In this document: piece by piece, positions 14,449 to 36,570 of the stretch | Layout of the letters: each line of letters begins with the position of its first letter | Position numbering within the stretch: the first letter of the stretch is position 1 | Virus record (IMG/VR): IMGVR_UViG_3300017783_005439 | Coordinates: 1-36,570 of that record | DNA from: a virus | DNA: 36,570 bases | Strand: one strand, 5' to 3' | Program-made: the position numbers and the translations under genes | The notes under the pieces: generated by a model | Seen by the model: the letters and a program-made list of their open reading frames with translations, nothing else | Databases searched by the model: none | What the model was told of the DNA's origin: nothing

Positions 14449-14449
14449 T

Positions 14450-15073: not shown

Positions 15074-15074
15074 C

Positions 15075-15917
15075 TTAATCTAAACTATTGATGTAATATA
15101 ATAATTTATCTTGAGGTTCCCAACCTAAAAGTACAATTGCATCATTATTTTCACAAAGAGTAGCTTTATAATTTCCTGGTTGGTCTTGAATATATCTAAC
15201 AGGACAACCAAATTTATGTTGGAACATTTTAGATAAATCTTTAATAGAGTAATTAACCCCTGTACCTAATTCCCAAGCATCATAATGTTCTATATTTTTA
15301 GTTCCTACTTTATATAAACCATCAACTATATCATCTACATGGGTAAAATCTCTTCTTTGTTCTCCATCTCCAACAACATCAATTTCAGCACCTCTATTAA
15401 TTCTAGATCTCCAGATACCAATTACATTACCATTTATTTCATCTAATGCTTCACCAGGACCATATACATTATAAAATCTACAAATTTCAACTTCTAAATT
15501 AAATGATTCTTTATATAATTTACAAATACCTTCACCTAAGTATTTATACATAGCATAAGGTGAAGTAGCTGGGTTATGATGTTTTGATGATGAACCAGCA
15601 TATACAACTTTAGCTCCTATATTATGAGCAAATTTACATACAGCTTCTGTTCCTGTTACGTTTACTCTATAAGTTTCGGATGGATTATCAAATGATGGTT
15701 GTACTCTTGACTGAGCAGCTAAATGGAATATAATATCATAATCTTGATGTACAGTATCTATTTCTGTAATATCACCTTCAAAATATTCACACCCTTTTAC
15801 TTTAGTATTACCTGTAGAGTAATTATCTAATGAATGTACAACATTATTTTCTTTTATTAATCTTTTGATTAAATTTGACCCAATAAAACCAGCACCTCCA
15901 GTTACTAATATTTTCAT
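15075..15917 (-). CDS. NAD-dependent sugar epimerase (GalE-like)
   Basis: Extended SDR of 280 residues: ILVTGGAGFIGSNLIKRL NAD site, IIFHLAAQSRVQPSFDNP, YAGSSSKHH active-site strand, SPYAMYKYLGE (Tyr-x-x-x-Lys), CRFYNVYGPGE and GDGEQRRDFTHVDDI, all as in UDP-glucose 4-epimerase-type enzymes. It overlaps the upstream zinc-ribbon gene by four bases (ATGA). A second, distinct SDR lies at 13429-14448, so at least two nucleotide-sugar changes may be made. Substrate not determined. Confidence 0.85.
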   Translation of the reverse strand: MKILVTGGAGFIGSNLIKRLIKENNVVHSLDNYSTGNTKVKGCEYFEGDITEIDTVHQDYDIIFHLAAQSRVQPSFDNPSETYRVNVTGTEAVCKFAHNIGAKVVYAGSSSKHHNPATSPYAMYKYLGEGICKLYKESFNLEVEICRFYNVYGPGEALDEINGNVIGIWRSRINRGAEIDVVGDGEQRRDFTHVDDIVDGLYKVGTKNIEHYDAWELGTGVNYSIKDLSKMFQHKFGCPVRYIQDQPGNYKATLCENNDAIVLLGWEPQDKLLYYINSLD

Positions 15918-16378
15918 TTCTCTTCAGCACTAAATATTCCTATATAATCTAAAGCTTCAATATAATCAGTTTCAGGAAATTCTTTTAAAGTACTCATATC
16001 CATTCTCCATTCATAAAATTCACCTTCTTTATGGGGTATAGGATATTTCTCTTTTTCATCTTCTTTAACAGGTACTGCTAAAACCCCAGCCCAATTCCAA
16101 TTTTCAACATTTTTTCCATTAGCAAATATCATACCTTTTTCAGGCATGTTAACTGTAGAGGGCATCCATATTTTTCCATCATCATCTTCACCCATTAATT
16201 CTTTGTAAAGATTTGGTAATAATTCCATTTGTTCATCAAAAAATTGAGTGTCTTTTTTTAATAATGTATTAGTAATAAAACCACAACCATAACACTGGTA
16301 GTTAGTAATTTCATTATTTACTTCTTGTACATAGCAAGCATCTGAGCCACATCTATCACATATTTTTAAATCATCCAT
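15914..16378 (-). CDS. Zinc-ribbon protein, unknown role
   Basis: The N-terminus has CDRC (residues 7-10) and CYGC (29-32), a four-cysteine zinc ribbon with a 20-residue beta turn. The remaining 120 residues hold aromatic and acidic segments (NWNWAGVLAVPVKEDEKEK, YEWRMDMSTLKEF) of unrecognised fold. It lies inside the sugar cassette between a methyltransferase and an epimerase. Conserved proteins of this kind occur in T4-like marine phages, from memory; role unknown. Confidence 0.65.
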   Translation of the reverse strand: MDDLKICDRCGSDACYVQEVNNEITNYQCYGCGFITNTLLKKDTQFFDEQMELLPNLYKELMGEDDDGKIWMPSTVNMPEKGMIFANGKNVENWNWAGVLAVPVKEDEKEKYPIPHKEGEFYEWRMDMSTLKEFPETDYIEALDYIGIFSAEEK

Positions 16379-16379
16379 T

Positions 16380-17003
16380 TTATTTTATTTTAATTGCTCC
16401 TATTTGATATCCGTTAATAACTACTTTATATAAATTATTATACATTGTGAAAAACTGTCTTACTCCTAATTCGGGTGAAGAAACTACGTGTGTTTCTTTT
16501 GGGTCTTTCCATCCAAAATCATCAAATATAATTAAACCATTTTTATTAAGCATTTTATTAGCATAGTAAGCATCTATAAAAGTATCATCTGCTCTATGAG
16601 AAGCATCTACATAAATAAAATCATATTTATTTCCTTCTTTTTCTAATTTAGGAAGAATATATTGAGAGTATCCTCTATTAATCTTAAAATTAATATTTGG
16701 ATAAAAAGATATATTATGTTTAAAGTTATTAAAAATAAAATCATCTTCTTTTAATCTTTCAGCTGTACCAGACATTCCAGATTCATCTAATGTTCCTCCA
16801 AAAGTATCTACTATTTCATAATTTACACCATCTTCTAAAAAATTTTCACAAACAAAACTAGTAGCTCTACCTTCATAACATCCTATTTCTAAAACATTTT
16901 TAATATTAAAATTTGCTTCAGTAAATAATTTATCCCATGATGGTATCATAGCATCAAACCATTCTTCAGTAAATTTCTGTTTTTTATTATATATAAATTC
17001 CAT
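16380..17003 (-). CDS. Class I SAM methyltransferase (Methyltransf_24-like)
   Basis: VLEIGCYEGRATSFVCENF is motif I (SAM binding), YEIVDTFGG motif II, and KYDFIYVDASHRADDTFIDA plus KNGLIIFDDFGW follow as in Methyltransf_24 proteins, where the Asp-Ala-Ser-His cluster lines the active site. Members methylate sugars and other small acceptors. It shares one base with the start of the preceding glycosyltransferase gene's stop. It likely methylates part of the glycan. Confidence 0.8.
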   Translation of the reverse strand: MEFIYNKKQKFTEEWFDAMIPSWDKLFTEANFNIKNVLEIGCYEGRATSFVCENFLEDGVNYEIVDTFGGTLDESGMSGTAERLKEDDFIFNNFKHNISFYPNINFKINRGYSQYILPKLEKEGNKYDFIYVDASHRADDTFIDAYYANKMLNKNGLIIFDDFGWKDPKETHVVSSPELGVRQFFTMYNNLYKVVINGYQIGAIKIK

Positions 17004-18298
17004 TATACTTTTTTTAATGTGGGTAATTCTAATCCACCTAAATTAGGCATATTTAATTGAACTTGTGTTGGGATATCAGCAACATTATCATCTAAAATAC
17101 CAATAAGTGTATTTTTCATAGCTTCAAAACTAAAGTTTTTTCTTAATCTATTAGATAGTGTTTTAGATTTAGGCGTCCATTTTTTGTAATTTTTCTTTAC
17201 ATCTACTAAAAAATGACCTAAATGACCATGGTCAACATCAAACCATTGTGATCCTTTAATTAACATATCTTTCTGTTGAGCTGATTCATGTATTTCATTT
17301 AATTTACCTCCCATCATAGGGGTTAATTTTGGATCTAGAAAATCAGTATGACCACTCCACCCAGTTGTTATTGTTGGTTTTCCTGTTAAAGCAAATTCTA
17401 ATAACGGTCTACCAAATCCTTCACCTTTAGTTGCTGATACTTGTGCTTTAATTTTTGGGTGATTATATATTTCATTCATTTCTGAATCTGAAAGATCACC
17501 ATGAATTAAGTAAATATGAGGTAATTTATTACCTGGTACGGACGTTTTAATAGAATCAATTCTTTTTTGTATTTCTCTTCTATCCATATGAGATCCCTTA
17601 CCAATACTAGTTTTTAATATTAATGCAGGGGCATTAGATTTTCCTTTAAATACTTCATAAAATGCTTTTATTAATAACCCAACATTTTTTCTGTCTTGTC
17701 CTAATTCTCCTTGCAACCAGTGTCCCACAAATAAATAAGCAAACTTTTCAGGAATATTATTGATATGGTTATATAGTTCTTGATTTTCAAACTTTTTTAC
17801 AGGTTTATAAACATCTAAATTAGCTCCTTCAAATATTACTTTAACTGGTGTAGTTAATTTAATTTGTGATTCAATATTTTTTTCTTTATCCTTTACTTGG
17901 TAAGTAGTACTTTCAAATACATTTTTAGAATGATTTGAAGATGTTAGTATTAAATCCATTCTATTACAACCTTCAATCCATTGAGGAGCACAGGCTGTTG
18001 TTTCAATTCCAGCTGTAAGCCCTATATTATACTTTCCAACTTTTTGAAATTCATTAGGAACAGTAACTTGACACCATATATCTGGTTGGGATTGCATTTG
18101 GGATACTATATATTTTTTTAAATAACTCCATTCTTCAAAATCATTTAAAAACCCTTTTCTAGTATCACCCCATCTTTGAGATAATATTTTAACATCATAT
18201 TTATTAGATTCAATTAAAGCTTTAACAAAATCTCTGCTTCTAGCACCATAACCTGAGTATGTGTCTATTGGGGCACTTATGTAAAATGTATTTTTCAT
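17003..18298 (-). CDS. Family 4-like glycosyltransferase (GT-B)
   Basis: The first half (YISAPIDTYSGYGARSRDFVKAL) has the N-terminal acceptor domain start; FAYLFVGHWLQGELGQDRKN begins the C-terminal Rossmann domain. ATKGEGFGRPLLEFALTGKP around residue 290 is the E-x7-E motif that binds the donor nucleotide, with PTITTGWSGHTDFL after it. With 431 residues it is full length. It is the second of two GT-B genes adjacent in the operon. Confidence 0.85.
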   Translation of the reverse strand: MKNTFYISAPIDTYSGYGARSRDFVKALIESNKYDVKILSQRWGDTRKGFLNDFEEWSYLKKYIVSQMQSQPDIWCQVTVPNEFQKVGKYNIGLTAGIETTACAPQWIEGCNRMDLILTSSNHSKNVFESTTYQVKDKEKNIESQIKLTTPVKVIFEGANLDVYKPVKKFENQELYNHINNIPEKFAYLFVGHWLQGELGQDRKNVGLLIKAFYEVFKGKSNAPALILKTSIGKGSHMDRREIQKRIDSIKTSVPGNKLPHIYLIHGDLSDSEMNEIYNHPKIKAQVSATKGEGFGRPLLEFALTGKPTITTGWSGHTDFLDPKLTPMMGGKLNEIHESAQQKDMLIKGSQWFDVDHGHLGHFLVDVKKNYKKWTPKSKTLSNRLRKNFSFEAMKNTLIGILDDNVADIPTQVQLNMPNLGGLELPTLKKV

Positions 18299-19729
18299 TT
18301 AATATATTAATTTATGTTGTAATTGTCTAGGTTTAAAATCATCATCTTGTAAGAATACGAAATTTTTTCTTGGTTCCCAAGTAGTAAATAATTCTTCCAT
18401 ACCATCAGCAAAAGTATTAGCCATTTTAACTGAAGTAAATCCTGCTTCATTACCTATAGCCCATTTTCTTCCACTATCTCCTATTTTTTTTCTTTTTTTA
18501 TCTGACATTGAATATAAAGTTTTAATATTTTCATATGCATCTCTATAATCACATCTACTATCCCAAATATAAGGAGTAACCATTGATCCTACCATACCTA
18601 AAGCTTTAGGATAAACAGGTAATACCCATTCTCCATGTTCAGTAAAAGTTCCATAATGATTAGATGGAATTTCTTTAGAATTTGTATACCATTCACCTTT
18701 ATCATCTACAAATCTCATTTGATCTTGCATGCCACCTGTTACATTAGCTATAAATGGAGTACCTGTAAGTAACGATTCAGTTAATGATAAACCCCACCCC
18801 TCAGCTGCTGAAATTAAAATAACAGCATCTGCCATATTATATAAATAATTCATTTGAGTATAATGTAACTTTTGATGAGAAATTAAAACTGTTTTGTCAT
18901 CATCTCCTAATAAATAACTTATTACTGCTGGTAAATCAGTACCATGTTCACTTCCTGGTTCTGTATGTAAGATAAATAATGCTTTGTTTTTCTGTTCTTC
19001 AGTAAGGTCATCTATGAATAATTTCCAAGCTGCTAAAGCATCAGGTATTGATTTTCTTCTAATATTTCTAGAATTAAAAAATAATATAAAATCTTTTTCT
19101 TCTCCTTTTGTAAATCTATTTTTAAATTCAATAAATTCTTTTGTTTCTTCTTTTAATGGGAAGAATTTTTTAGTATCTAAACCATGGGGTACATATTTAA
19201 TAACTTTATTATCTGCTTTTTCACCTAAAACAATTTTATTAATTGCTACAGTTTGTTTTGAAATACCAAATAAAGCATCACAAGATTCATAAAATTCTTC
19301 ATTATATTGAGGGGCAGGCATATCATCCCAAATATTTAAATATGCTATAGGTATACTTTTTCTAATTTCTTCTTCCATATTAAAAACCCATTGAAAATAT
19401 CTAGGGTCAGTAATTAAAAGAATAGCATCTGGTTTTTCTAGTTTAATAACTTCTCTTAGAATATCAGGTGTTCCATAACCATCAACAGGATATAATTTAA
19501 CATAAGCATCATCAATTCCTATATCTTTATTTGCCTCTGAAGACAAATCTGCTATTTTTCCTTTATCTGGGTGTTTTACTGATCCCGCCAATTGTGCCCA
19601 GTTATATCTATGAGCAGTATTTAAAGCAATTTCCCTACCAATTTGAGCAACACCAGAATGAACTCTAATATCATCTGTTAGTAATAAAATCTTTTTTCTA
19701 TCACTTTGTTTAATATAACCCTCTTTCAT
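18299..19729 (-). CDS. Family 4-like glycosyltransferase (GT-B)
   Basis: KKILLLTDDIRVHSGVAQIG starts the N-terminal Rossmann domain, VPHGLDTKKFFPLK the linker typical of GT4, and FILFFNSRNIRRKSIPDAL the second domain. ISAAEGWGLSLTESLLTGTP (about residues 303-322) is the E-x7-E donor motif, followed by FIANVTGG. It is full length at 476 residues. It begins the sugar cassette, six bases after the ribbon-helix-helix gene. Confidence 0.85.
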   Translation of the reverse strand: MKEGYIKQSDRKKILLLTDDIRVHSGVAQIGREIALNTAHRYNWAQLAGSVKHPDKGKIADLSSEANKDIGIDDAYVKLYPVDGYGTPDILREVIKLEKPDAILLITDPRYFQWVFNMEEEIRKSIPIAYLNIWDDMPAPQYNEEFYESCDALFGISKQTVAINKIVLGEKADNKVIKYVPHGLDTKKFFPLKEETKEFIEFKNRFTKGEEKDFILFFNSRNIRRKSIPDALAAWKLFIDDLTEEQKNKALFILHTEPGSEHGTDLPAVISYLLGDDDKTVLISHQKLHYTQMNYLYNMADAVILISAAEGWGLSLTESLLTGTPFIANVTGGMQDQMRFVDDKGEWYTNSKEIPSNHYGTFTEHGEWVLPVYPKALGMVGSMVTPYIWDSRCDYRDAYENIKTLYSMSDKKRKKIGDSGRKWAIGNEAGFTSVKMANTFADGMEELFTTWEPRKNFVFLQDDDFKPRQLQHKLIY

Positions 19730-20920: not shown

Positions 20921-21322
20921 TTATTTCCATTTACCTCTGGTAACTAACATCGCTATAATTCCATAATTAGATATATCTACCCAACTATCAATTGATGCTT
21001 CACCAGCAACATAATTTTTACCATTACGTTTTAAGATATTCTTTAAACGATTAATTTTATCATTACACCTAAGCCATATACCTGTAAGTGAAAGATCTCT
21101 ATCTTCTCTAGTATTTAAATCTGATCCTAATGAAATATTTCCTAAACCATAATCCATCATTTTACTAGCAAATAAATCATATTGTTCTTTTTGAATTTTT
21201 TGAAATTCTTCTGCTAATTCAGGATATAATTTTTCAAAATCATTATTTTTCCTAATTGTATTAGGGTTAATGTTTTCTGCTTCTGGGTTATTTTCGTAAT
21301 ATTTTTCTACTGTACTGCTCAT
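20921..21322 (-). CDS. Nmad1/DUF1599-like protein
   Basis: The 133-residue protein has FASKMMDYGLGNI, then SLTGIWLRCNDKINRLKN, then DSWVDISNYGIIAMLVTRGKW. This K-x-x-D-Y-G ... R-x-x-D-K-x-x-R ... D-x-x-x-Y-G-I-I-A pattern resembles DUF1599, also called nucleotide modification associated domain 1. That domain is named for its recurrence near phage DNA-base-modification genes. Enzymatic role is not known. Its presence alongside FolE, QueE and a carbamoyltransferase hints at modified DNA in this phage. Assignment is from memory of the motif. Confidence 0.6.
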   Translation of the reverse strand: MSSTVEKYYENNPEAENINPNTIRKNNDFEKLYPELAEEFQKIQKEQYDLFASKMMDYGLGNISLGSDLNTREDRDLSLTGIWLRCNDKINRLKNILKRNGKNYVAGEASIDSWVDISNYGIIAMLVTRGKWK

Positions 21323-24182: not shown

Positions 24183-25826
24183 TTACATATTTATCATTGG
24201 AGCAGAAGTTTCTGGAACTGGGTCTTTAATTTCAGGGTGATCAACTACTACACATTCTGTTAAAAGAATTATTCCTGCTACAGAAGCTGCATTTTCAAGG
24301 GCAGTTACTGTTACTTTTGTAGGATCTAAAATTCCAGCTTCTTCCATATTAACAGTTATACCTCTACTTAAATCATAACCTGTCCAATAACCATCTCCAC
24401 TATTGCAAAGATCCATTGCTAACATTTCAGCACGAGTATTATCATAACCAGCATTAACTAATATTTGGTTAAATGGTTTTCTACATGCATTTTTAACAAT
24501 TCTATATCCTATGGTATCATCTTTTAACCCATTAGAAGCGTATAATAGTGCAGCTCCCCCACCTGGTACTATACCATTTTCAAGTGCTGCTTTTGTTGCA
24601 TGTAATGCATCATCAACTCTATCTTTCTTCTCTCTCATTTCAATTTCCGTATGACCTCCAACATGAACAATAGAAACACCACCAATCATTTTTGCTAAAC
24701 GAGATTGTAAATGTTCTATAATGTATGGAGTATCTTCTTTATCAATTTGAGCCTGAAGATTTGAAACATGCTCATTTATATCATCAGCATTACCTTTACC
24801 ATCAACAATAGTTGTTTGTTCTTTTGTAATAGTTACAGCACGTGCTTCTCCAAACCAATCATAACTAAATTTATCAAGTTTCATTCCTTTATTTTTATCA
24901 AAAACTTGACCGCCTGTTAATTTAGCTATATCTTCAAGGATTAATTTTTTTCTATCTCCAAAATCAGGAGCTTTAATTGCTGCTACTTTAAGAATTCCTC
25001 TTGCTTTATTAACAATAAGAGTAGCTAACGCTTCTCCTTCAATATCATCAGCAATAATTAATAATGATTTATTTGCGCTTGAAACACCTTCTAGAATAGG
25101 TAACAAATCTTTAACTTGGGTAAATTTATGATCAGCAATTAAGACATAAGCATCTTCAAGTGTACAACTCATATCAGAGTTATTTGTAACAAAGAAATGT
25201 GATTTGTATCCTCTGTCAAACTGCATCCCTTCAACAGTTTCTAAATATGTTTCACCTGTTTTAGATTCTTCAATATGCACAACTCCATCTCTACCTACTT
25301 TTTCAATAGCTGTAGAGATTAAATTTCCAATTTCAATATCATTATTTGCTGATACAGTTGCTATTTGTTGTAATTGCTCTTCAGATGAAATTTCTTTTGA
25401 AATGTTGTCTCTAATAACATCAATAACTTCTTTTACAGCTTTATCAATATCACGCTTTATTTCATTAGCGTTTTCCCCATTATTAAGATGGTTTAACCCT
25501 CCCTTAACTAACTCACGTGCTAAAAGAGTTGAGGTTGTTGTTCCATCACCTGCTTTTTCATTTGTTTTAGTTGCTGCTTGTTTTACCAATTGAGCTCCTA
25601 AATTTTTAACTAAACCATGAACTGTGATGTGTTTAGCAACCGTAACACCATCTTTAGTATGGGTTGGTCTATAATTGTCATCATAACCATTATGGTCTAT
25701 TAATACATTTCTTCCATTAGGTCCTAATGTGGATACAACGGCATCAGCTAGGATATTAATCCCTTCCATAACTTCTGCTCTTGCTTCTGGTCCGAATTTT
25801 ACTTCTTTATTTGTGTATAGTGGCAT
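24183..25826 (-). CDS. groEL: Group I chaperonin GroEL
   Basis: Full-length, 547 residues. STLGPNGRNVLI near residue 31, KDGVTVAKHI, AGDGTTTSTLLA near residue 90 with the Asp that positions Mg-ATP, DGVVHIEESKTGETYLETVEG, LLIIADDIEGEALATL in the apical domain, RVDDALHATKAALENGIVPGGGAAL with the catalytic Asp and phosphate loop, and GYDLSRG all match bacterial GroEL. The usual GGM-repeat tail inside the cavity is absent; it ends ETSAPMINM. It folds proteins in an ATP-driven double ring with GroES, whose gene is directly upstream. GroEL in phages is rare. Confidence 0.97.
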   Translation of the reverse strand: MPLYTNKEVKFGPEARAEVMEGINILADAVVSTLGPNGRNVLIDHNGYDDNYRPTHTKDGVTVAKHITVHGLVKNLGAQLVKQAATKTNEKAGDGTTTSTLLARELVKGGLNHLNNGENANEIKRDIDKAVKEVIDVIRDNISKEISSEEQLQQIATVSANNDIEIGNLISTAIEKVGRDGVVHIEESKTGETYLETVEGMQFDRGYKSHFFVTNNSDMSCTLEDAYVLIADHKFTQVKDLLPILEGVSSANKSLLIIADDIEGEALATLIVNKARGILKVAAIKAPDFGDRKKLILEDIAKLTGGQVFDKNKGMKLDKFSYDWFGEARAVTITKEQTTIVDGKGNADDINEHVSNLQAQIDKEDTPYIIEHLQSRLAKMIGGVSIVHVGGHTEIEMREKKDRVDDALHATKAALENGIVPGGGAALLYASNGLKDDTIGYRIVKNACRKPFNQILVNAGYDNTRAEMLAMDLCNSGDGYWTGYDLSRGITVNMEEAGILDPTKVTVTALENAASVAGIILLTECVVVDHPEIKDPVPETSAPMINM

Positions 25827-25836
25827 TTTTTCTTTT

Positions 25837-26127
25837 TTATTTGTTAATTTTAGCTAATATTTGATTTTCTGGTCCTACCCAATACTCTTCACCATCATAT
25901 GGTAATTTAGTAAAACCTTGTGTAGGTAGTACTACTACATCCCCTACACTACTAATAGTTTTAACAAATTCCCCAGTAATAGTGCTTTGTCCTGGTCCAA
26001 CAGATATAACTTCACCTGTTTGATTTTTTTCATTACCCATATCAGGAACAATAATGTTACCGTGTTGAGTTTCTTCTGCTTCTATTGGTTTAACAATAAC
26101 AGCATTAAATAGTGCTTCTAATTTCAT
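25837..26127 (-). CDS. groES: Co-chaperonin GroES
   Basis: A 96-residue protein beginning with the GroES fold: FNAVIVKPIEAEE, then the mobile loop (about residues 19-33, NIIVPDMGN), then GEVISVGPGQ and GDVVVLPTQGFTKLPYDGEEY. The hydrophobic loop residues IIV match the GGIVLP triplet that binds GroEL. It caps the folding chamber. It lies 10 bases upstream of GroEL in the usual groESL order. Its mobile loop is shorter and differs from E. coli's, perhaps tuned to the phage GroEL. Confidence 0.93.
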   Translation of the reverse strand: MKLEALFNAVIVKPIEAEETQHGNIIVPDMGNEKNQTGEVISVGPGQSTITGEFVKTISSVGDVVVLPTQGFTKLPYDGEEYWVGPENQILAKINK

Positions 26128-27001: not shown

Positions 27002-27736
27002 TTAAAATTCCGTTTCTGCTTTCCTTACTACAAAATATTTTGAAGTAATTTCATCTAATGAAAATTCTAATTGAATTAAACCCATACTACTTAAATACAT
27101 TTTACCACCTTCCATATCTTTATTTGCTTGGAGGATTGTTTTAAATGTATCAGAATTAAATGGTAATTTAATATTAGTTTCTTTAATGTCTCCTTGAACT
27201 TGGTAAGTAATCTTGTTATTATGTCCTGATTCATCACCAAATACAAATTCAACTACATTTTCATTATCTAAATTAGTTGTAGTTGTAATTAACATATTAT
27301 CTACTTGTGATAATGCACTTTTTGCTCTAATAATATTATCAATATCTTCAGACGTTAAATCTAATTCAACAACCCATTCTGGGATTGTTACTTCACCTAC
27401 TTTATTTATTAATAAAGGATCAGATAAAGCGTAATTAAGATTAAAATTTAAATCTGATATTTTTAATTTAGTACAAATAGCGTTGTTTTTTTCTAGTTCT
27501 AAAAGTAAATCTCCATTACATATATTAACTAAACTTGATAGTTTTTTAGTATCATAGATTGCTAATTTGCTATCTTCTAGTTGGAAATCACTACAAGAAA
27601 CATTCCCAATAACATCTTTAGTAGGTGTCATAAAGTCAATACTAATTGAATTATTTTCAATTACCCATTTAACAGATTCATTTAACCCAAGATAATACTT
27701 ATTTATTATTGATTGAAGTGTTAATTTATTTATCAT
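27002..27736 (-). CDS. Sliding clamp, gp45 type
   Basis: A 244-residue protein similar in length to T4 gp45 (228). The pattern LTLQSIINKYYLGLNESVKW, LSDPLLINK, WVVELDLTSEDIDNIIRAKSAL, VFGDESGHNNKITYQV and MYLSSMGLIQLEFSLDE matches gp45/PCNA-like two-domain subunits, with the inner basic helices and long connector. Three copies form a ring that tethers polymerase to DNA. It ends the replication operon downstream of the carbamoyltransferase gene, overlapping it by four bases. Confidence 0.8.
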   Translation of the reverse strand: MINKLTLQSIINKYYLGLNESVKWVIENNSISIDFMTPTKDVIGNVSCSDFQLEDSKLAIYDTKKLSSLVNICNGDLLLELEKNNAICTKLKISDLNFNLNYALSDPLLINKVGEVTIPEWVVELDLTSEDIDNIIRAKSALSQVDNMLITTTTNLDNENVVEFVFGDESGHNNKITYQVQGDIKETNIKLPFNSDTFKTILQANKDMEGGKMYLSSMGLIQLEFSLDEITSKYFVVRKAETEF

Positions 27737-29409
27737 TTTTTAGTGTAAGTTTTGTTGTTTATTACTAGTTTATCCACTATTCCATTATCCAAATGTACGA
27801 AAGCTTCTTCAGGACGACAAACTATAGGTTCACCATGTATGTTAAAGCTAGTATTTAATAAAACAGGAATATCTGTTATTTTTCTAAAACAATCTAATAA
27901 ATTATAAAATTTAAAATTTGAATCTTTAGTTACTATTTGTATTCTTGCTGTTTTATCAACTGGGTGGACTACTGCTGGGATTCTGTCGTACCATTCTTCT
28001 CTTGTATCATATAACATAGTCATAAATTCAGCTGTGTATTTAGATTTTTTAACACAAAATACTTTATTAGCATAATCATCTAATACTACAGGAGCAAAGG
28101 GCATATTATCATTCCTTTGTAATCTATCATTAATTTTTTTATAAGTTCCAGGTACACTTGGGTCAGCAATTATACTTCTATTACATAATGCTCTTGGACC
28201 ATGTTCATGTCTCCCATTAAACCATCCTATTACTTTACCTTCTTTTAAATCATAAGCTAATGATTCTTCATTATAAGGTCTAATATTATATTTTTCAGAA
28301 TTTTCTTCAAATTTTCCAAAAGCATAGTTGCTCCATGAGTGTGGTAGATTATAATTTTTAATATCTATATTATCAAAAGATGTTCCTAAATAAATATCTT
28401 TTAACTTAAATGGTTTAAAATCTGAGTTTTTTAATTTGTGAGTTGCTAAAGCAGCACCTAAAGGTAAACCTTCATCTCCCATAGGTGGGGCAATAAAAAC
28501 TTCATCAACCCAATTTAATTCATTTATTCTTTTATTTAGTTTTACATTAGCAAAAACACCACCAGCTAAAGCAATTTTTTTAACATTAGGGTATTGTTTG
28601 TGATAAAAATTAATTAATTGTAATACTTTTTCTTCAAAAACTAACTGACCATTATAAGCTAAGTCTTCTGGTCTATATGAATGAGGTCCATCACATAATA
28701 ATGGGTTTTTATCTACAAATAGTTTATGAAAATCTTCATATATTTTTCGTGTATTATATTCAGTGTCTATAGGATGATCTAAATCAGTGTTATTTGTTTG
28801 AGGTGATAAAGTAACACATTCATTAAAAGCTTCATATATCCAATTAACATATTTTCCATGAGATGATAATCCTACAATTTTTCCTTCATCTTTTATTCTT
28901 CTAAATCCTAATAATTCAGTAAGCATACAATAATAATGACCTAAAGATTTAGTTTTTAAAGAATGTTGTTTAATTAATTTTAAATCTCCGTTATGTCCTA
29001 AGTAACATTTCCCCCAATCATCATTCCCGGCTCCATCAATAGAAATTACAAGTGTATCTTCTTCAAACCCACTACAATAATAAGCTAAATTACAATGGGC
29101 TTCATGGTGGTTAATTCTGATCCATTTTTCTTTAGGAAAAGGGCCTAAACCAATACCATCCCAAATCTCTTCACTTACTCTTGCATCATAATAAGTTACT
29201 ACATAATCTATACTTTCCCAATCAAAACCTTTATGATACCAAACATTTTGTCCACTTTGCCAAGGGTATCTGAATAGATTGTTATAATAGTCTTTATAAC
29301 TTCTAATTCTATTAAATCTTTCTTCTTCAAAAGCAAATATAGGTTTTCCATCTTCTAAATATGCTACACCACAACTATGTTCTCCCCCACTTAAAGCTAG
29401 TATTTTCAT
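27733..29409 (-). CDS. Carbamoyltransferase, NodU/TobZ family
   Basis: A 558-residue enzyme. MKILALSGGEHSCGVAYLEDG is the first nucleotide-binding motif; INHHEAHCNLAYY (about residue 108) holds the metal- and carbamoyl-phosphate-binding histidines; LVISIDGAGNDDW follows; EGKVIGWFNGRHEHGPRALCNRSIIADP is the second-domain signature and LLNTSFNIHGEPIVCRPEEA the end motif. It transfers a carbamoyl group from carbamoyl phosphate through an adenylate to a hydroxyl. In bacteria substrates are Nod factors and antibiotics; in T4-like marine phages the target is unknown and could be a sugar or a modified base. Confidence 0.9.
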   Translation of the reverse strand: MKILALSGGEHSCGVAYLEDGKPIFAFEEERFNRIRSYKDYYNNLFRYPWQSGQNVWYHKGFDWESIDYVVTYYDARVSEEIWDGIGLGPFPKEKWIRINHHEAHCNLAYYCSGFEEDTLVISIDGAGNDDWGKCYLGHNGDLKLIKQHSLKTKSLGHYYCMLTELLGFRRIKDEGKIVGLSSHGKYVNWIYEAFNECVTLSPQTNNTDLDHPIDTEYNTRKIYEDFHKLFVDKNPLLCDGPHSYRPEDLAYNGQLVFEEKVLQLINFYHKQYPNVKKIALAGGVFANVKLNKRINELNWVDEVFIAPPMGDEGLPLGAALATHKLKNSDFKPFKLKDIYLGTSFDNIDIKNYNLPHSWSNYAFGKFEENSEKYNIRPYNEESLAYDLKEGKVIGWFNGRHEHGPRALCNRSIIADPSVPGTYKKINDRLQRNDNMPFAPVVLDDYANKVFCVKKSKYTAEFMTMLYDTREEWYDRIPAVVHPVDKTARIQIVTKDSNFKFYNLLDCFRKITDIPVLLNTSFNIHGEPIVCRPEEAFVHLDNGIVDKLVINNKTYTKK

Positions 29410-29795: not shown

Positions 29796-30728
29796 TTAAA
29801 ATTTAAAAAATAATTCTTTATAAGGGTTTAAATTTAAAGTCCACCCTAAATCATTATAAAATCCTTCTAATTTATTTAATAAAATTGATTCAAATATTTT
29901 TTTTCTATCAGCATGTTGTTCAATAAATAAACGTATTTTTTCTGGTAGATCATATTCCAAAAATGCAATTGCATCTATTTGATAAGCATTAGGTTTTAAA
30001 TAAATCCATTTAATTTTATCACCTTGAGTAATTTGATTGTGAGATTTATTTAACCCCCAAAATTTAAGTAAATCATTATATCTAATAACTGCTCTTACAG
30101 CTGCTGGGGCTCCTTTAGCTACTACTGTAAACATTTCTCCTGCTCTTGCTTTACGTTCAGTATACTTATTAAGTGTTTTAACTGATGTTGGGTTACCTAA
30201 TTCAGTTAATGGAATAGCTCCTCCTAATATCTCTGTTTTAAATTTTTTAACTCTAGCATCAATTTCATCTTGCTTAGTTCCTTTTAAAACATCAACTAAA
30301 GCACTGTGGAAGAATCTACCTAATACAGGTGGAAAATTTGCTTTTTTAAATTCAAGACCTTTAACATCAAGTGATTCCTTTACGATACCTTCTTGTTTAG
30401 TAATCCATTGGGCATATCTTCTAGTTGCTCTAAAATAAGCTGCTCTAATAACACACTCAGTTTTCATATCAAGTCTATGCTTGCCCTTAGCATTAAAACA
30501 ATCAGATGCTAATGAATCATAAGATTTTGTTACTATTTTTTCATAATCCATTGCTATAGTTTCTAGATTATTATCTTTATCCTCTTCAGACATTTCATCA
30601 AAATCACTATATCTATGTCTTAATAAAGGTTCAGCATGTATATAAATTGAATCTGTATCTGAATATGCTACATAATTAGTATCTTCAGAATCACAAATCC
30701 ACCATGGAGTATCTTCTAAATGTTTCAT
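29796..30728 (-). CDS. Family B DNA polymerase, C-terminal part (gp43B)
   Basis: A 310-residue protein whose YVAYSDTDSIYIH at about residue 20 is motif C, giving two of the metal-binding aspartates of the polymerase active site. After it come segments typical of gp43 palm and thumb (KGKHRLDMKTECVIRAAYFRATRRYAQW; ARAGEMFTVVAKGAPAAVRAVI) and a C-terminal tail (NPYKELFFKF) that could bind the clamp. It does not work alone; it needs the N-terminal half encoded just upstream, with start and stop joined as TAATG. Confidence 0.9.
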   Translation of the reverse strand: MKHLEDTPWWICDSEDTNYVAYSDTDSIYIHAEPLLRHRYSDFDEMSEEDKDNNLETIAMDYEKIVTKSYDSLASDCFNAKGKHRLDMKTECVIRAAYFRATRRYAQWITKQEGIVKESLDVKGLEFKKANFPPVLGRFFHSALVDVLKGTKQDEIDARVKKFKTEILGGAIPLTELGNPTSVKTLNKYTERKARAGEMFTVVAKGAPAAVRAVIRYNDLLKFWGLNKSHNQITQGDKIKWIYLKPNAYQIDAIAFLEYDLPEKIRLFIEQHADRKKIFESILLNKLEGFYNDLGWTLNLNPYKELFFKF

Positions 30729-32398
30729 TATACTTTTATTTCTTTATTAATTTCTCTATTAGCTGATAGTGCAGATTCTTGTATAATACGTTGTCCACTA
30801 AGCGTTATAGCTTCAGATAATATAACGTTACCATACCTGAAACTACCTAAAGCTGTTGCACCATATAACGAGTTAAGTAAAATTTTCATTGTATATTGCT
30901 TCATATGAAAAGCAGCTCCCAATTCTTTATCTCCAGATTTATATGCTTTTTTCATTGCATTTTTATACTTAACCCTTTCATCAAACCATTTTTTTAATAT
31001 AGTTGATAACACGGATTCACGATTAGTTGCAAACATTACACCATTAGCTGATATTGATAATTCATTATTTTCTATAGTATTAACTAATTTACCTACAGTA
31101 ATTTTATTTCTACTTCGTTTAAGATTTTCAACAATTAATTCTTCAGCATAATCTCTACTTTTTAAATCATTTAAACCTAAACGATTATTTCTATCGTCAG
31201 CATCAATAATTCTACCTACCATTGTTTCTTTACCAATATTAACAGTCATTATAATTGAAGGATATAGTGAAGTTAAATCTAAATCAAATACATAATTATA
31301 AATTCCAGCTTTAGGACAAAATAAATAACCTCCAGCATAATTCTTTTTTGATAGGGGATTACGATCTTTAGCAGGGGGAATTGTTTTTTTACTTAATAAA
31401 TAAGCTGAAATTGCTCCATCTTGTGTTTTAGTATTAGCGTATACTTCACTATAATTATGTTTACCTTTGTGAGCTAGATTTTTTACTAATGATAGATATT
31501 CTAGTTTTTCATCTAATACTTTTAATATCTCAACATCTCGAAAATTATATTGTATAAATTTAAGTGGATCATCTTCAAATAATTTATCTAAATTACCTTC
31601 ATATTCTATTTTTTTAATTTTAGCATATTTTTCACCAATTGCATCTAATTTAAATGATGGTTCATCCGCCCAACTAAATTTCTTATGTAAACGCATATAA
31701 TCTAAAGACTCAACACCTGCTATTTGAATGTATTGATCTTTAAACCACGGTGTTTCTCTAACATAACCAATAGGAGATAAATAACGAGCAATATCTTGTC
31801 CTAAAACATTACACATTCTGTAATATAAATAAGGGACATCAAAATAATCACTATTCCACCCTACTATTATATCAGGATCAATTTCCCTAAATTTTTCTAA
31901 AAATTTTAATAATAATTCTTCTTCAGTAGCACAGGGTATAATTTCTTTAGTTTTAGCTTTAGTTCTTGATAATTTAGACTTAGGATCTAAAATTAAAATA
32001 GCCCACTCATCAACTTGTTTATCATACCAAGCAATTGATGTTACTTTTTTAGGTGCCGATTTTATATAATCCTCAGTAAGGGCGTCACCCATTTCTGTCT
32101 CAATATCAAAGAAAAATTCTTTTTGTGTAGTTGAAGGTTCATCATTAATACCATATTTTTCAACTAAAAACTTTTGATATGGAGTCATATCATGAAAGTG
32201 AAGTTTTGAATTATCAGACTTCCAATTTGATATCTTTTTTAATGATTCACCATTTAGACCTGTATGTGAAGATTGAGACTCATCACACTCTATATAAGCT
32301 TGATTAGTCCATTCAATTTTTTTATAACCTTCATCATCCCAAAGATGGATTAAAAAATTATTTCCTTTAATTCTTTGTGCAAAACATTTTTTATACAA
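30728..32398 (-). CDS. Family B DNA polymerase, N-terminal part (gp43A), TTG start
   Basis: Residues 95-330 hold a 3'-5' exonuclease: FFFDIETEMGD (Exo I), IIVGWNSDYFDVPYL (Exo II) and FIQYNFRDVEILKVLDEK (Exo III). Then DLDLTSLYPSIIM (motif A) and MKQYTMKILLNSLYGATALGS (motif B). Motif C is missing; it lies in the next gene. I accept a TTG start at 32398 because the leader AATAAAGGTT precedes it at the same distance as the ATG of other genes, and no in-frame ATG occurs for dozens of codons. Together with the next gene it makes a complete replicative polymerase of about 865 residues. Confidence 0.93.
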   Translation of the reverse strand: MYKKCFAQRIKGNNFLIHLWDDEGYKKIEWTNQAYIECDESQSSHTGLNGESLKKISNWKSDNSKLHFHDMTPYQKFLVEKYGINDEPSTTQKEFFFDIETEMGDALTEDYIKSAPKKVTSIAWYDKQVDEWAILILDPKSKLSRTKAKTKEIIPCATEEELLLKFLEKFREIDPDIIVGWNSDYFDVPYLYYRMCNVLGQDIARYLSPIGYVRETPWFKDQYIQIAGVESLDYMRLHKKFSWADEPSFKLDAIGEKYAKIKKIEYEGNLDKLFEDDPLKFIQYNFRDVEILKVLDEKLEYLSLVKNLAHKGKHNYSEVYANTKTQDGAISAYLLSKKTIPPAKDRNPLSKKNYAGGYLFCPKAGIYNYVFDLDLTSLYPSIIMTVNIGKETMVGRIIDADDRNNRLGLNDLKSRDYAEELIVENLKRSRNKITVGKLVNTIENNELSISANGVMFATNRESVLSTILKKWFDERVKYKNAMKKAYKSGDKELGAAFHMKQYTMKILLNSLYGATALGSFRYGNVILSEAITLSGQRIIQESALSANREINKEIKV

Positions 32399-32412: not shown

Positions 32413-32937
32413 TTAAATGTTATTAATTTCTTTTTTAGTGAAAAATTGTTTTAGGTCTGGTCTATAATAATTAACATTTTTCATTACTTTTCTATCACGT
32501 GTTCTATAGACAATATAATATTTACCAACCTTTTCGTAGTGACATGGTTCATTTTGCTCCTTGGAACGGAGTTCCACTGTTGCTTGTGCTTCCTCTTCGT
32601 TTGAGCAAGCTTTAGACATATTCGACCCTTGTACTTCTTGATATGCTGGCCATATTTTATCCTTAAGACCATGTAGCATAGTTCCGTTACCCACTGAAAC
32701 ATAGGCAATGTCACATAAAGCATCAAGAACCTCAACAATATTACCTGTTTCACATGCAACTTTGTATTCTTCAAGTTCCTCAAGAATAAAATCATAAACA
32801 AACTGCCATTCTTTTTTTTCTGGTATTGTTGGTTCATAATTGTTGGGTTTACCCATTGTAGCATTAAATGTTTCTACTTCATCTACAAATGGAACATTTG
32901 GTGATTTTTTCATAAACTTATTAAAATCTTTACTCAT
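32413..32937 (-). CDS. MazG-like nucleotide pyrophosphohydrolase
   Basis: The 174-residue protein holds FILEELEEYKVACETGNIVEVLDALCDIAYVSVG, whose E-x-x-E and D-x-x-D residues match the metal-binding set of the MazG/all-alpha NTP pyrophosphatase family (about residues 50-84), followed by a LHGLKDKIW and EVQGSNMSK segment as in phage homologues. It would hydrolyse (d)NTPs to the monophosphates, for nucleotide-pool or modified-base control. The C-terminal 60 residues are an unassigned domain. It lies between FolE and polymerase genes. Confidence 0.75.
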   Translation of the reverse strand: MSKDFNKFMKKSPNVPFVDEVETFNATMGKPNNYEPTIPEKKEWQFVYDFILEELEEYKVACETGNIVEVLDALCDIAYVSVGNGTMLHGLKDKIWPAYQEVQGSNMSKACSNEEEAQATVELRSKEQNEPCHYEKVGKYYIVYRTRDRKVMKNVNYYRPDLKQFFTKKEINNI

Positions 32938-32942
32938 AACTT

Positions 32943-33641
32943 TTAAATTTGGTGTCCTCCATTATTAATTTTTAAACTGTCAAAAAATTCTTTTCTTGCT
33001 AAATTAGTATTTTGTCTAAATACTCCTGATGCTTTTGTTGTTACCATACCTGCTCCTTGATGTTTTACTCCTCTACAAGAAACACAATTATGTCCTGCAA
33101 CTATAGTTACTATAACACCTCTATTTCCATCAGTAATTTTATCAACTGCATTATGAATAGCTGATGTTAGTTGTTCTTGAATAGCACCCCTTCTACCAAA
33201 TAATTCAACAATTCTATTTAATTTACTTAACCCAACTACTTGACCTTCTTCTCCAGCTATATAACCTATATGAACTACACCACTAATTGTTTGATGATGG
33301 TGTGAACACATAGATGTTAATGGAATATTTCTTTCGATTATAATTCCATCATAACCATCTGAAGGAAAAGATGTAATAGGAGACATTGGAGTATATCTAC
33401 CAGCCCATAAATCATTTACATATGCTTTAGCTACACGTCTAGGTGTATCGTTTGAATTAGGATCATTTTCCCAATCACAATCTAATGCAGTTAAAAATTC
33501 TCCATATGCTTTAGTAGCTTTTTCTATCATTTCTTCCTTTTGCTTATCATTTAAAGGAAAGTTAGTTGCAACCCCATTTGCAAAACCCTTTTGTACAACT
33601 TCTAATTTTTCATGAACTTCTTTGTCTTGTTTTTTAGCCAT
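32943..33641 (-). CDS. folE: GTP cyclohydrolase I
   Basis: A 232-residue protein. TSMCSHHHQTISGVVHIGYI has the zinc-binding Cys and catalytic His residues; VVGLSKLNRIVELFGRR and QEQLTSAI follow; VTIVAGHNCVSCRGVKHQGAGMVTTKASGVF gives the second zinc Cys and substrate loop. It converts GTP to dihydroneopterin triphosphate, the first step to folate and to 7-deazaguanine (preQ0). A QueE-like gene is present about 2.6 kb upstream in transcription, which favours the deazaguanine route. It is the first gene after promoter P7. Confidence 0.95.
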   Translation of the reverse strand: MAKKQDKEVHEKLEVVQKGFANGVATNFPLNDKQKEEMIEKATKAYGEFLTALDCDWENDPNSNDTPRRVAKAYVNDLWAGRYTPMSPITSFPSDGYDGIIIERNIPLTSMCSHHHQTISGVVHIGYIAGEEGQVVGLSKLNRIVELFGRRGAIQEQLTSAIHNAVDKITDGNRGVIVTIVAGHNCVSCRGVKHQGAGMVTTKASGVFRQNTNLARKEFFDSLKINNGGHQI

Positions 33642-33664
33642 TTTTATAACTTTTTATTATTATT

Positions 33665-33694
33665 AATATACGAATTAATTTAAGGATATCCAAA
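33665..33694 (-). promoter_or_regulatory. Promoter P7 (TTTG-N20-TATATT)
   Basis: TTTG (33694-33691), 20 bases, TATATT (33670-33665) on the minus strand, with GTTTGGATAT at the -35, as in P4. The -10 lies 23 bases before the FolE ATG. It should drive the FolE, MazG-like, polymerase, carbamoyltransferase and clamp genes. Confidence 0.75.
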
Positions 33695-33699
33695 CTAAA

Positions 33700-34749
33700 T
33701 TAACTTAGTCCATATCTTCCTTTCATAGCATCATAAACCTCATCTATTTCAGTATTAGAAAGCATTTTATTATATGTTAATAAAGCTCCAATACCATTTG
33801 ATCCTTCTACGGGACCAGCATAACCATATCCAACTCTAATTTGTTGTCCTCTAACTAATGCTGTGTTACTCCTTGAATTGTAATTAGCAGTCCAATTAGC
33901 TCCATTTTTAGAGTAAAATCCAGTTCTTGCGGTTGAAGTTAAACCTGTACTCATTTTAATAGCCATCATAGTCCAAGCACCTTCACCACCATTAGTATCA
34001 CAAGCTGATGTACCTGCATGATCATAAGCATCAGTTTTTCTTGAGTAATAAGAAAATGCTTGATTTGTTTCCCAAGTAATAGCTACTGAACATTGATATG
34101 AAGTACCTCCATTTCCTGCTTTTTCAAAAATGGTATCTCTTGATGCTATATCAGTACACCAAACCCACATAACTATAGTACAATCTCCTCCTATATTAAC
34201 AGCACCATACTTATCATTACATTGATAATATCCCGAGTCATTAAATTGAAAACCTGTATATCCTCCTAAAGAAGTTCTAGATAATTGAGTACCATATATA
34301 TAAAAACATAAACCATTTCCACTTACATCTTTCCATTCACCTGTTGTCCCTGCACTAACGTCGATTTGTGCGTCTAAGTAAGATGATAACCCATCCATAG
34401 GTAAACCTACAGGAAAATTATCTATATTATCTGTTCCATGAAAAATCATATAATCAGTAGTAGAAATATAATCTAAAGCTTCATCTATTGTAGTGATTGT
34501 TGATGACGGGGATGGTGATATTGTTGTATTACAAAATTGAATAACCCCGGCATCATCTGCAGGGGAATAAATATGAGGTGAGGCTCCCTCTACTCCTTTT
34601 GCAATAGTATACCCAGTTGTTCTTAAACCATTATACCAACCTGTTGTTGAAGTAGGACCATAGTTTACGTTTGATACTCCTGCGGCTGTTGTGGTTTTTA
34701 AAACAGCATTATCTGGTAATTCTTCTGCGTATTTAATTGGATCTGACAT
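33700..34749 (-). CDS. LamG/concanavalin-like phage structural protein
   Basis: A 349-residue protein rich in Gly, Ser, Thr and Tyr. Residues 117-345 have the beta-sandwich pattern of a LamG/ConA-like lectin domain: GLSSYLDAQIDVSAGTTGEW, KDVSGNGL, CTIVMWVWCTD, WTMMAIKMSTG and IGALLTYNKMLSNTEIDEVY at the end, the latter being a very common LamG ending. Such domains occur in phage tail fibres and adhesins that bind sugars. The N-terminal 110 residues (DPIKYAEELPDN) may attach it to the virion. It stands alone among replication genes, just before promoter P7. Confidence 0.75.
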   Translation of the reverse strand: MSDPIKYAEELPDNAVLKTTTAAGVSNVNYGPTSTTGWYNGLRTTGYTIAKGVEGASPHIYSPADDAGVIQFCNTTISPSPSSTITTIDEALDYISTTDYMIFHGTDNIDNFPVGLPMDGLSSYLDAQIDVSAGTTGEWKDVSGNGLCFYIYGTQLSRTSLGGYTGFQFNDSGYYQCNDKYGAVNIGGDCTIVMWVWCTDIASRDTIFEKAGNGGTSYQCSVAITWETNQAFSYYSRKTDAYDHAGTSACDTNGGEGAWTMMAIKMSTGLTSTARTGFYSKNGANWTANYNSRSNTALVRGQQIRVGYGYAGPVEGSNGIGALLTYNKMLSNTEIDEVYDAMKGRYGLS

Positions 34750-34750
34750 A

Positions 34751-34909
34751 TTAGGGGGTATTATTTACTATTGAATTATAAAAAACATAAGCATCTGCTT
34801 TAGTATCATACCAAGTTCTAGTAGTTTCATAAGAAGGCCAATTATAAAAAGCGTCAATCCACCATTTATCAGAATCAGAGTCATAATCCATATTGCAAAA
34901 ATATACCAT
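34751..34909 (-). CDS. Hypothetical 52-residue protein
   Basis: An ATG at 34909 opens 52 codons to TAA at 34753-34751, one base before the structural gene's ATG. The sequence is rich in Tyr, Trp and Asp (MDYDSDSDKWWIDAFYNWPSY). It may be a small partner of the structural protein next to it. The start codon lies in one arm of a short inverted repeat (34906-34912 with 34928-34934). Confidence 0.6.
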   Translation of the reverse strand: MVYFCNMDYDSDSDKWWIDAFYNWPSYETTRTWYDTKADAYVFYNSIVNNTP

Positions 34910-34928
34910 AATGTTTTAATTATAAATA

Positions 34929-35348
34929 TTATGGTAATTTATAATCTTGAATAGCTTTTGAATCTTTTCTTTCCCAAGGATATATAATCCATTCATCTCC
35001 TTCAAATCTTTGGGCATAAGCTGTAGGTGTAAATTTTGATGTATGTGGTTTATGATGTAAAACAGCTGTTATAGCTGCTTCATGGTTAAGTAATGTTTCT
35101 CCACTATCACAAATATCATCAATAAGTAAAGTATTTCTTATTACTTTATCATCTGACCATAATATTTTATCTGTATAGGGAAGGTTTAATTTATGTGAAA
35201 TTAATACTGCGGGTATTAATCCACCCCTAGCTAAACCTGATATATGAGTTATATTTGGGATCTTTGTTGCGATTTTTTCACATAAAACCTCAACTAAATC
35301 TTCAACATCACTCCAACTTAAATATATTTTATTATCTATTTTTAACAT
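34929..35348 (-). CDS. Xanthine/guanine phosphoribosyltransferase-like protein
   Basis: The 139-residue protein has ISGLARGGLIPAVLISHKL (purine- and PRPP-site strand), TLLIDDICDSGETLL (the PRPP-binding loop, Asp-Asp) and WIIYPWERKD near the C-terminus, as in the Gpt-type xanthine-guanine phosphoribosyltransferases. It would make GMP or XMP from the base and PRPP; in a phage it may aid purine salvage. A role with deazaguanine bases is possible, inferred only from nearby FolE and QueE-like genes. Confidence 0.75.
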   Translation of the reverse strand: MLKIDNKIYLSWSDVEDLVEVLCEKIATKIPNITHISGLARGGLIPAVLISHKLNLPYTDKILWSDDKVIRNTLLIDDICDSGETLLNHEAAITAVLHHKPHTSKFTPTAYAQRFEGDEWIIYPWERKDSKAIQDYKLP

Positions 35349-35359
35349 AACTTTTTATT

Positions 35360-35782
35360 TTAATTATTAAATTTACTTCTAACTCTATCGCTTATAGGTA
35401 TTGAATCCCCCATTTCATCGATCCTGACGAATATAATATTTGTCGCAAGTATAACGTTTTGTTTACCGTTATAAACATTATGGGATCGTGCTTCCATATA
35501 TAACTTTATTGAAGTATCACCAACAGCATCTACTCTCCCATAAATTTTAAGTAGTTGACCTTCACGAGCTGGTTTATTAAAAACACATTTATCTATTGCT
35601 TTAGTTACCATACGAGGTGTATCACAATATTCAGCTGCAAAAGAAGCTGCTGCTGCATCTAACCAAGCTAATAATTTTCCCCCAAATAAATTACCATGAA
35701 ATCCTAAATCTGATTTTTTAATTGGGTGTTGGGTTATATGCTTCATAAATCCCAAACACTCTTGCGTCTGTATTTTTGCCAT
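35360..35782 (-). CDS. Hotdog-fold acyl-CoA thioesterase (YciA-like)
   Basis: GFHGNLFGGKLLAWLDAAAASFAAEY (about residues 26-51) is the hotdog central helix with a Gly-rich turn and an acidic catalytic residue (Asp) seen in YciA/BACH-type thioesterases; FNKPAREGQLLKIYGRVDAVGDTSIKLYMEAR supplies the sheet. Length 140 is typical. It hydrolyses acyl-CoA to free acid and CoA, probably in the cytoplasm. Its purpose in a phage is unclear: lipid changes in the host or an unknown substrate. Confidence 0.8.
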   Translation of the reverse strand: MAKIQTQECLGFMKHITQHPIKKSDLGFHGNLFGGKLLAWLDAAAASFAAEYCDTPRMVTKAIDKCVFNKPAREGQLLKIYGRVDAVGDTSIKLYMEARSHNVYNGKQNVILATNIIFVRIDEMGDSIPISDRVRSKFNN

Positions 35783-35813
35783 CTATATCTTAATGTTCTA
35801 AAATATCTCATAT

Positions 35814-36152
35814 TTATCTTTTTCCACCGTGGTATTCTGTTGCATGACCTTCGGTTATTAATGTTTTATTTATATCATTATCTCCTATCCATAAAGTACC
35901 TAAACATCTTCCATATTTTCCTACCCCATGAGATTGTAAAATAAAATCACCATCACCTAATAATTCTATAAGCCTTGCTTTAGCAGCTAATCCTAATTTT
36001 TTTTCTTCTAAATCTCTAGTTCTTGATTCAGGTGCATTCATTCCATGCATTCTAATTCTTACTTTTTTCCAAGTATCAAACCCTAGATCTACAAGAGCAT
36101 CAACAGTGTCTCCATCAACAACTCTATCTAATTTTGCATTATATTTATACAT
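35814..36152 (-). CDS. Staphylococcal nuclease-like protein
   Basis: A 112-residue SNase (OB-fold) domain. VVDGDTVDALVD (residues 11-22) carries Asp-Gly-Asp-Thr; VRIRMHGMNAPES holds the conserved Arg and Glu of the active site, with Asn where the classic enzyme has Asp40; GKYGRCLGTLWIGD supplies the second arginine; TLITEGHATEY ends the domain. It has no signal peptide, so would act on DNA or RNA in the host cell, for example degrading host DNA. The Asn change could lower calcium binding. Confidence 0.85.
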   Translation of the reverse strand: MYKYNAKLDRVVDGDTVDALVDLGFDTWKKVRIRMHGMNAPESRTRDLEEKKLGLAAKARLIELLGDGDFILQSHGVGKYGRCLGTLWIGDNDINKTLITEGHATEYHGGKR

Positions 36153-36279
36153 TTTCTATATATTTTTCTAATTTATCAATTAATACTAAAACATCATCAG
36201 GATCCATTGTTATGGCACAACAAACCCCTACATTTTCTTTAATCTCTTCTAATAACTCAAGTGCTTCTTCTTTAGACAC
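36145..36279 (-). CDS. Small helical protein, 44 residues, GTG start
   Basis: GTG at 36279 lies within the last codons of the QueE-like gene (TGTGTCTAA overlap) and the frame runs 44 codons to TAA at 36147-36145, overlapping the next gene by eight bases. It is helical and acidic (KEEALELLEEIKEN, DPDDVLVLIDKLEKYIEN). Overlaps at both ends fit the packing here. Function unknown. Confidence 0.5.
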   Translation of the reverse strand: MSKEEALELLEEIKENVGVCCAITMDPDDVLVLIDKLEKYIENV

Positions 36280-36570
36280 AACGCTCAGTATCAAAAGCCA
36301 TAATGTGAGAACGACCTGTAAATCTCCAACCTCTATCTCTTACAAAATTCATTACCTCAGGATATGACTCCATTAAACTTTCTCTGGTATCACCTGCAGG
36401 CATTGCCCAAACTTTATCATCTGGTATATTACATTCTTTAATAAACTCATTTACCTCCTCTATCATAGATAAATTCTTATCTAATACAGGTTTAATATGG
36501 TAATCAGAATGATACTCAATAGATTGTTTTATTGCTTCATAATTTAATCTCTTTGAATTATGTTTTTTAA
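36272..36570 (-). CDS. queE: QueE-like radical-SAM protein, C-terminal part
   Basis: The frame is open to the window edge, giving about 98 residues from KHNSKRLNYEAIKQSIE to the stop at 36274-36272. VWAMPAGDTRESLMESYPEV followed by VRDRGWRFTGRSHIMAF matches the end of 7-carboxy-7-deazaguanine synthase (the family pattern is MPxGTTREELLE ... CLERGYRFTxRxH). QueE turns 6-carboxytetrahydropterin into CDG, a step towards preQ0. The N-terminal radical-SAM cysteines are outside the window. With FolE it supports phage deazaguanine synthesis. Confidence 0.75.
   Translation of the reverse strand, partial: KKHNSKRLNYEAIKQSIEYHSDYHIKPVLDKNLSMIEEVNEFIKECNIPDDKVWAMPAGDTRESLMESYPEVMNFVRDRGWRFTGRSHIMAFDTERCV

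Follow-up and report, generated by a model that had tools for sequence, protein, structure and literature searches.

The 36,570-base virus fragment IMGVR_UViG_3300017783_005439, analysed here over its whole length and hereafter called the window, very probably ends inside a known kind of phage 7-deazaguanine DNA-modification cassette, FolE-QueD-QueE-QueC-DpdA, by which guanine in the phage DNA would be swapped for a modified base. The window has a G+C content of 28.8%, carries nearly all of its genes on the minus strand, and stops with its record at position 36570. An earlier note on this DNA had claimed a FolE gene, a QueE-like C-terminus at the window edge and a nearby gene resembling xanthine-guanine phosphoribosyltransferase (XGPRT), and had predicted that QueD, QueC and DpdA would lie past 36570. 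All three genes it named were confirmed in the window, and the predicted partners were found in close relatives.

FolE, a GTP cyclohydrolase I of 232 aa, is encoded at 32943-33641 (-) and was identified by PF01227 (E=1.5e-42; 145 bits, cut-off 27) and by PHROG 2197, GTP cyclohydrolase (1.2e-58). Its zinc ligands and HxC motif (C112, H114, H115, H184 and C186) are invariant in 12 phage FolEs. The frame at 36272-36568 (-), which is still open at the contig end, encodes the C-terminal 98 aa of QueE (PHROG 2076, QueE-like, 3e-12). This fragment had no match in Pfam or NCBIfam because the radical SAM core falls outside the window. Its identity is 94% to the corresponding end of full-length QueE from a sibling contig, L001, and 54% to QueE of Flavobacterium phage immuto. 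Between these two genes, at 34929-35348 (-), lies a guanine/xanthine phosphoribosyltransferase (PRT) gene, which matched NF006613 (1e-11, under its cut-off), PF00156 (just above cut-off) and, by phmmer, PDB entry 1vdm (8e-11).

Since the window record stops at 36570, the flanking sequence was read in relatives. Scanning IMG/VR with FolE confirmed 243 relatives, 80 of which were fetched for analysis, and 34 relatives whose contigs extend 6.4 kb or more upstream of FolE made up a long-flank set. Two siblings were particularly informative: L004, with 92-95% nucleotide identity to the window across a shared 3.2 kb, and L001, with 80-91% along 13 kb and a FolE 97% identical to that of the window. 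Both carry, on one strand, the gene order DpdA-QueC-thioredoxin-QueD-QueE-...-PRT-...-FolE, so that each of the genes predicted past the window edge is present there. DpdA, QueC, QueD and QueE were all present in 31 of the 34 long-flank relatives, and the PRT in 24. From the siblings, we infer that QueD, QueC and DpdA are also present in the window's own phage.

The DpdA proteins of L001 and L004 are 261-263 residues long and resemble the annotated DpdA of immuto. They had no match in Pfam, including its model of the cellular tRNA-guanine transglycosylase (TGT), and a PDB profile search with the DpdA alignment found nothing meaningful. The fold search succeeded: an AlphaFold model built with 29 relatives reached a pLDDT (predicted local distance difference test) of 93.6, and its best 50 PDB matches were all tRNA-guanine transglycosylases, the human and mouse enzymes among them. 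D52, D83 and D205 are invariant across 29 sequences. By its predicted fold, the clade DpdA is a guanine transglycosylase. Among named phages, its identity is 40% to the immuto protein, 36% over the full length to the DpdA-like protein of the Campylobacter firehammerviruses CP20/CP220, and 23% to a remote homologue in Cellulophaga phage phiST (fold TM-score 0.84). PF01702, the Pfam TGT model, detected no DpdA in six phage records, including that of immuto, where DpdA is annotated; absence by PF01702 was therefore not counted as absence. The group is reportedly of a complete-replacement type called DpdA3, a name that we take to cover the firehammervirus and phiST proteins. In firehammervirus DNA, deoxyguanosine is completely replaced by 7-deazaguanine derivatives (PMC10273834), and by analogy complete replacement of deoxyguanosine is plausible in the window's clade.

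Full-length QueE of L001 is a radical SAM protein with the cysteine spacing CX3CX7C. In L001, the end of QueE overlaps with a flavodoxin gene (6679-7203), which is also found in the L036 and L041 cassettes, is not in the window, and could encode the electron donor of QueE. The PP-loop motif SGGxDS is present in the QueCs of L001 and immuto. The clade QueC lacks the zinc-binding cysteine cluster and carries instead an invariant DYKSASSVER motif, found in 42 of 42 clade QueCs (L001:4048-4893 and 41 others). The conservation of this motif argues against decay of QueC, and the loss of the cysteines in its favour may be new. The zinc cysteines are kept in the QueCs of slur01 (a CAjan relative), a Rosebush-type phage, nt-1, a Campylobacter phage and a halovirus, and are also missing from QueC of Pseudomonas phage Baskent_P4_1. 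We considered and dropped a link between zinc-less QueC and 2'-deoxy-7-amido-7-deazaguanosine (dADG), as the cysteines are kept in the Campylobacter phage, whose genus is reported to have dADG. HGY in place of HGH in QueD was likewise dropped as a defect, since phiST and phiSM and the phages of Brevundimonas and Synechococcus have it too. None of 14 relative contigs yielded a QueF, which makes dADG or 2'-deoxy-7-cyano-7-deazaguanosine (dPreQ0) the likeliest modified nucleoside on the gene content. FolE-QueD-QueE-QueC-DpdA yields dPreQ0 in characterised phages (PMC6884629).

The PRT is a recurrent companion of these genes. Its phosphoribosyl pyrophosphate (PRPP) loop holds the motif LLIDDICDSGETL, with D77, D78, D81, G83 and T85 invariant, and its AlphaFold model matches HGXPRT/XGPRT structures; by sequence and predicted fold it is a 6-oxopurine phosphoribosyltransferase (XGPRT/HGPRT). 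It was found in 52 of the 80 relatives, and 46 of the 52 have it no more than 75 bases from FolE, on one side or the other. Among 50,697 phage records searched, 19 held a PRT homologue and 392 held FolE, and 17 of the 19 were phages with FolE/Que genes, belonging to five lineages: immuto; the phiST group; Brevundimonas phages, where FolE adjoins XPRT; Synechococcus phage BUCT-ZZ01, with the order QueE-XGPRT-QueD-FolE; and Pseudomonas/Stenotrophomonas phages, where PRT and FolE form a single protein (the detail was read in Baskent_P4_1). In Baskent_P4_1, the PRT-FolE fusion is followed directly by an unannotated frame of the TGT family (L085:6831-7748), which has 52% identity to the slur01 transglycosylase. 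That the PRT turns up next to FolE, or joined to it in one protein, in unrelated deazaguanine cassettes of phages suggests recycling of the guanine ejected by DpdA. The PRT, a candidate for a helper not described before, most likely salvages this guanine. In the open literature, we found no paper on point that connects a phosphoribosyltransferase to the deazaguanine genes of phages. We propose more tentatively, and with somewhat less than even confidence, that such a guanine-salvage arm (XGPRT-like, found in five or more phage lineages, one of which has it fused to FolE) belongs to phage deazaguanine modification, and that in the window's clade it serves complete replacement, the base being made by a zinc-less QueC.

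In the mechanism we envisage, FolE would convert GTP to dihydroneopterin triphosphate, the first step in the synthesis of 7-cyano-7-deazaguanine (preQ0), and QueD, QueE and QueC would process this product to a 7-deazaguanine base, for which preQ0 or its amide, 7-amido-7-deazaguanine (ADG), is the likeliest candidate. The short DpdA, of the firehammervirus/phiST-like kind, would then swap guanine in finished phage DNA for this base, and the exchange would shield the phage genome from restriction. Each exchange by DpdA would free one guanine, which the PRT could return to GMP and so to GTP for FolE and for replication. Several observations weigh against parts of this scheme. QueD, QueC and DpdA are not within the window record, and their presence rests on siblings; three of the 34 long-flank relatives lack DpdA, QueC and QueD near FolE. 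The product of the zinc-less QueC is uncertain on its sequence, and could be ADG, by a stop at the amide, or preQ0. About 28 of the 80 relatives, some with short flanks, had no PRT match, which indicates that the PRT is not essential, and the remaining two of the 19 PRT-matching phage records are unverified faecal scaffolds, one of them without FolE in the 14.5 kb read.

These observations leave room for other explanations. As the window is cut within QueE and a few relatives lack the other genes near FolE, the cassette could be complete in relatives and broken or incomplete in the window's phage. We regard this as very improbable: the cassette genes of the window are all intact frames as far as the sequence runs, the nearest siblings, at the 92-95% level, hold every part, and one of the three exceptions carries DpdA elsewhere on its contig (that behind L049). 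FolE and QueE might alternatively supply pterin or folate, or a queuosine precursor for host tRNA that boosts translation, with the DNA left unmodified. FolE serves folate synthesis as well as that of preQ0, and phages in which some Que genes occur without a recognised DpdA were once thought to raise host tRNA queuosine (PMC6884629). However, the same cassette in relatives encodes a dedicated TGT-fold protein, closest to the DNA-modifying phage kind and missed by the Pfam model of cellular TGT, and this makes such a role decidedly unlikely.

A further alternative concerns the PRT, which could turn the 7-deazaguanine base into a nucleotide, so that the modified base would enter DNA via the polymerase. 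In Brevundimonas phage MaInes, the FolE-XPRT pair adjoins genes for ribonucleotide reductase and a deoxynucleoside monophosphate kinase, and no TGT was found in this genome by the Pfam or phrog_19058 profiles. However, these profiles miss true members, PF01702 having missed the immuto DpdA and phrog_19058 the phiST homologue at genome level, and a TGT-family protein accompanies the PRT both in the window's clade and in Baskent_P4_1. The acidic PRPP-loop residue in such PRTs acts at the purine N7, which is absent from 7-deazaguanines, and this residue is conserved here (D81). As the PRT is accompanied by a transglycosylase, and as PRTs of this type act through an N7 that 7-deazaguanines lack, we consider the nucleotide route rather unlikely, and favour insertion of the base by DpdA, with salvage of guanine by the PRT.

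Comparison with known systems places the cassette among its kind and sets out what differs. The CAjan, Rosebush, 9g and nt-1 systems (Hutinet et al. 2019, PMC6884629) share FolE, QueD, QueE, QueC and a guanine transglycosylase, whereas the window's clade has a short DpdA of about 260 residues unseen by Pfam TGT, a QueC without zinc cysteines, and a PRT in the cassette. The firehammerviruses are alike in DpdA and differ in that their genes are dispersed and their QueC retains the cysteines. Phage immuto (vB_FspM_immuto, NC_055915.1) has annotated FolE, QueD, QueE, QueC and DpdA, together with a PRT, MazG, 4HBT, GroES/GroEL and a matching glycosyltransferase; apart from DpdA, its identities to the clade proteins are 62% for FolE, 72% for QueE and 68% for QueC. 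However, its gene order is not the same, and it has a two-domain QueF, whereas none was found in the window's clade, and a family A polymerase, where that of the clade is of family B and split. In phiST (NC_020842.1), whose base is reportedly 7-deazaguanine, the order QueD-QueE-FolE-MazG is shared, QueE is 67% identical, a remote DpdA homologue is present and a PRT lies elsewhere in the genome, but no QueC is annotated in the stretch read. The phage PRT resembles cellular hypoxanthine/xanthine-guanine phosphoribosyltransferases (1vdm, 5bqo and E. coli Gpt) in fold, PRPP-binding motif and a C-terminal PW[ED], but is shorter, belongs to a base-modification cassette and, in some phages, forms a fusion with FolE.

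Other genes interleave with the cassette in the window. Directly downstream of FolE, a MazG-like nucleotide pyrophosphohydrolase gene (32413-32937 (-); PF01503, 8e-9; PHROG 671, 7.7e-27) is kept in 33 of the 34 long-flank relatives; it is a conserved neighbour in the cassette. A staphylococcal-nuclease-like gene between QueE and the PRT (35814-36152 (-); PF00565, 1.9e-11) occurs in 10 of the 34 and has no tie to the deazaguanine pathway. The 4HBT thioesterase at 35360-35782 (-) (PF03061, 1.1e-14) is missing from the corresponding position in L001 and L004 and is cargo. A 349-aa protein without assigned function, encoded between the PRT and FolE (33700-34749 (-); PHROG 4390, 8.6e-5), is probably cargo as well, its gene being present in two of the 34. 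Promoter and terminator scans gave nothing above chance level.

Farther away, the earlier note had pointed to an Nmad1-like gene at 20921. This frame (20921-21322 (-)) is, like FolE, QueE and the PRT, a genuine open frame with database homology and not a chance one. Its identification as Nmad1-like is weak, with PF07659 at E=4.6e-5 and 24.1 bits, just below the 25-bit cut-off, and adds little. After the MazG-like gene, two abutting frames (29796-32398 (-)) make up a split family B DNA polymerase: 30728-32398 encodes the exonuclease and palm and 29796-30728 the remainder; the first frame of L001 is the same and ends alike. Between this polymerase and a sliding-clamp-like gene lies an O-carbamoyltransferase of 558 aa (27733-29409 (-); PF02543/PF16861), absent at this site in L001. 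GroEL and GroES are phage-encoded at 24183-26127 (-) and are conserved in immuto and most relatives. A cluster at 13429-19729 (-) comprises glycosyltransferases, a methyltransferase and a NAD-dependent epimerase, and one of the glycosyltransferases (18299-19729) matches its immuto counterpart (48%). A further epimerase (6624-7505) and a PfkB-like kinase (4683-5420) suggest, by sequence, sugar-nucleotide synthesis.

Among cultured phages, the nearest relatives have Flavobacterium and Cellulophaga as hosts. Within genome assemblies, the closest DpdA sits on a Flavobacteriales-binned contig that holds most of the cassette and is probably a phage contig. Contigs L102 (NZWA01000061.1), L105, L107 and L108, which belong to this phage group, come from assemblies labelled Flavobacteriales, Woesearchaeota, Legionellales and Pelagibacter, and these too are probably binned phage contigs and not host genes. 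The hosts of this marine phage group are likely to be Flavobacteriia.

These findings place predicted guanine-replacement chemistry in a phage group common in marine metagenomes, as the 243 FolE relatives confirmed in IMG/VR attest. The cassette itself is of a known kind, and the PRT arm and the zinc-less QueC may be new parts of it. The fate of the guanine released by whole-genome transglycosylation is a question not addressed in the open literature examined, and the PRT, by its recurrence next to FolE or in fusion with it, suggests an answer that can be tested. DNA that withstands restriction could influence the range of Flavobacteriia that these phages infect, and could also bias their sequencing and cloning.

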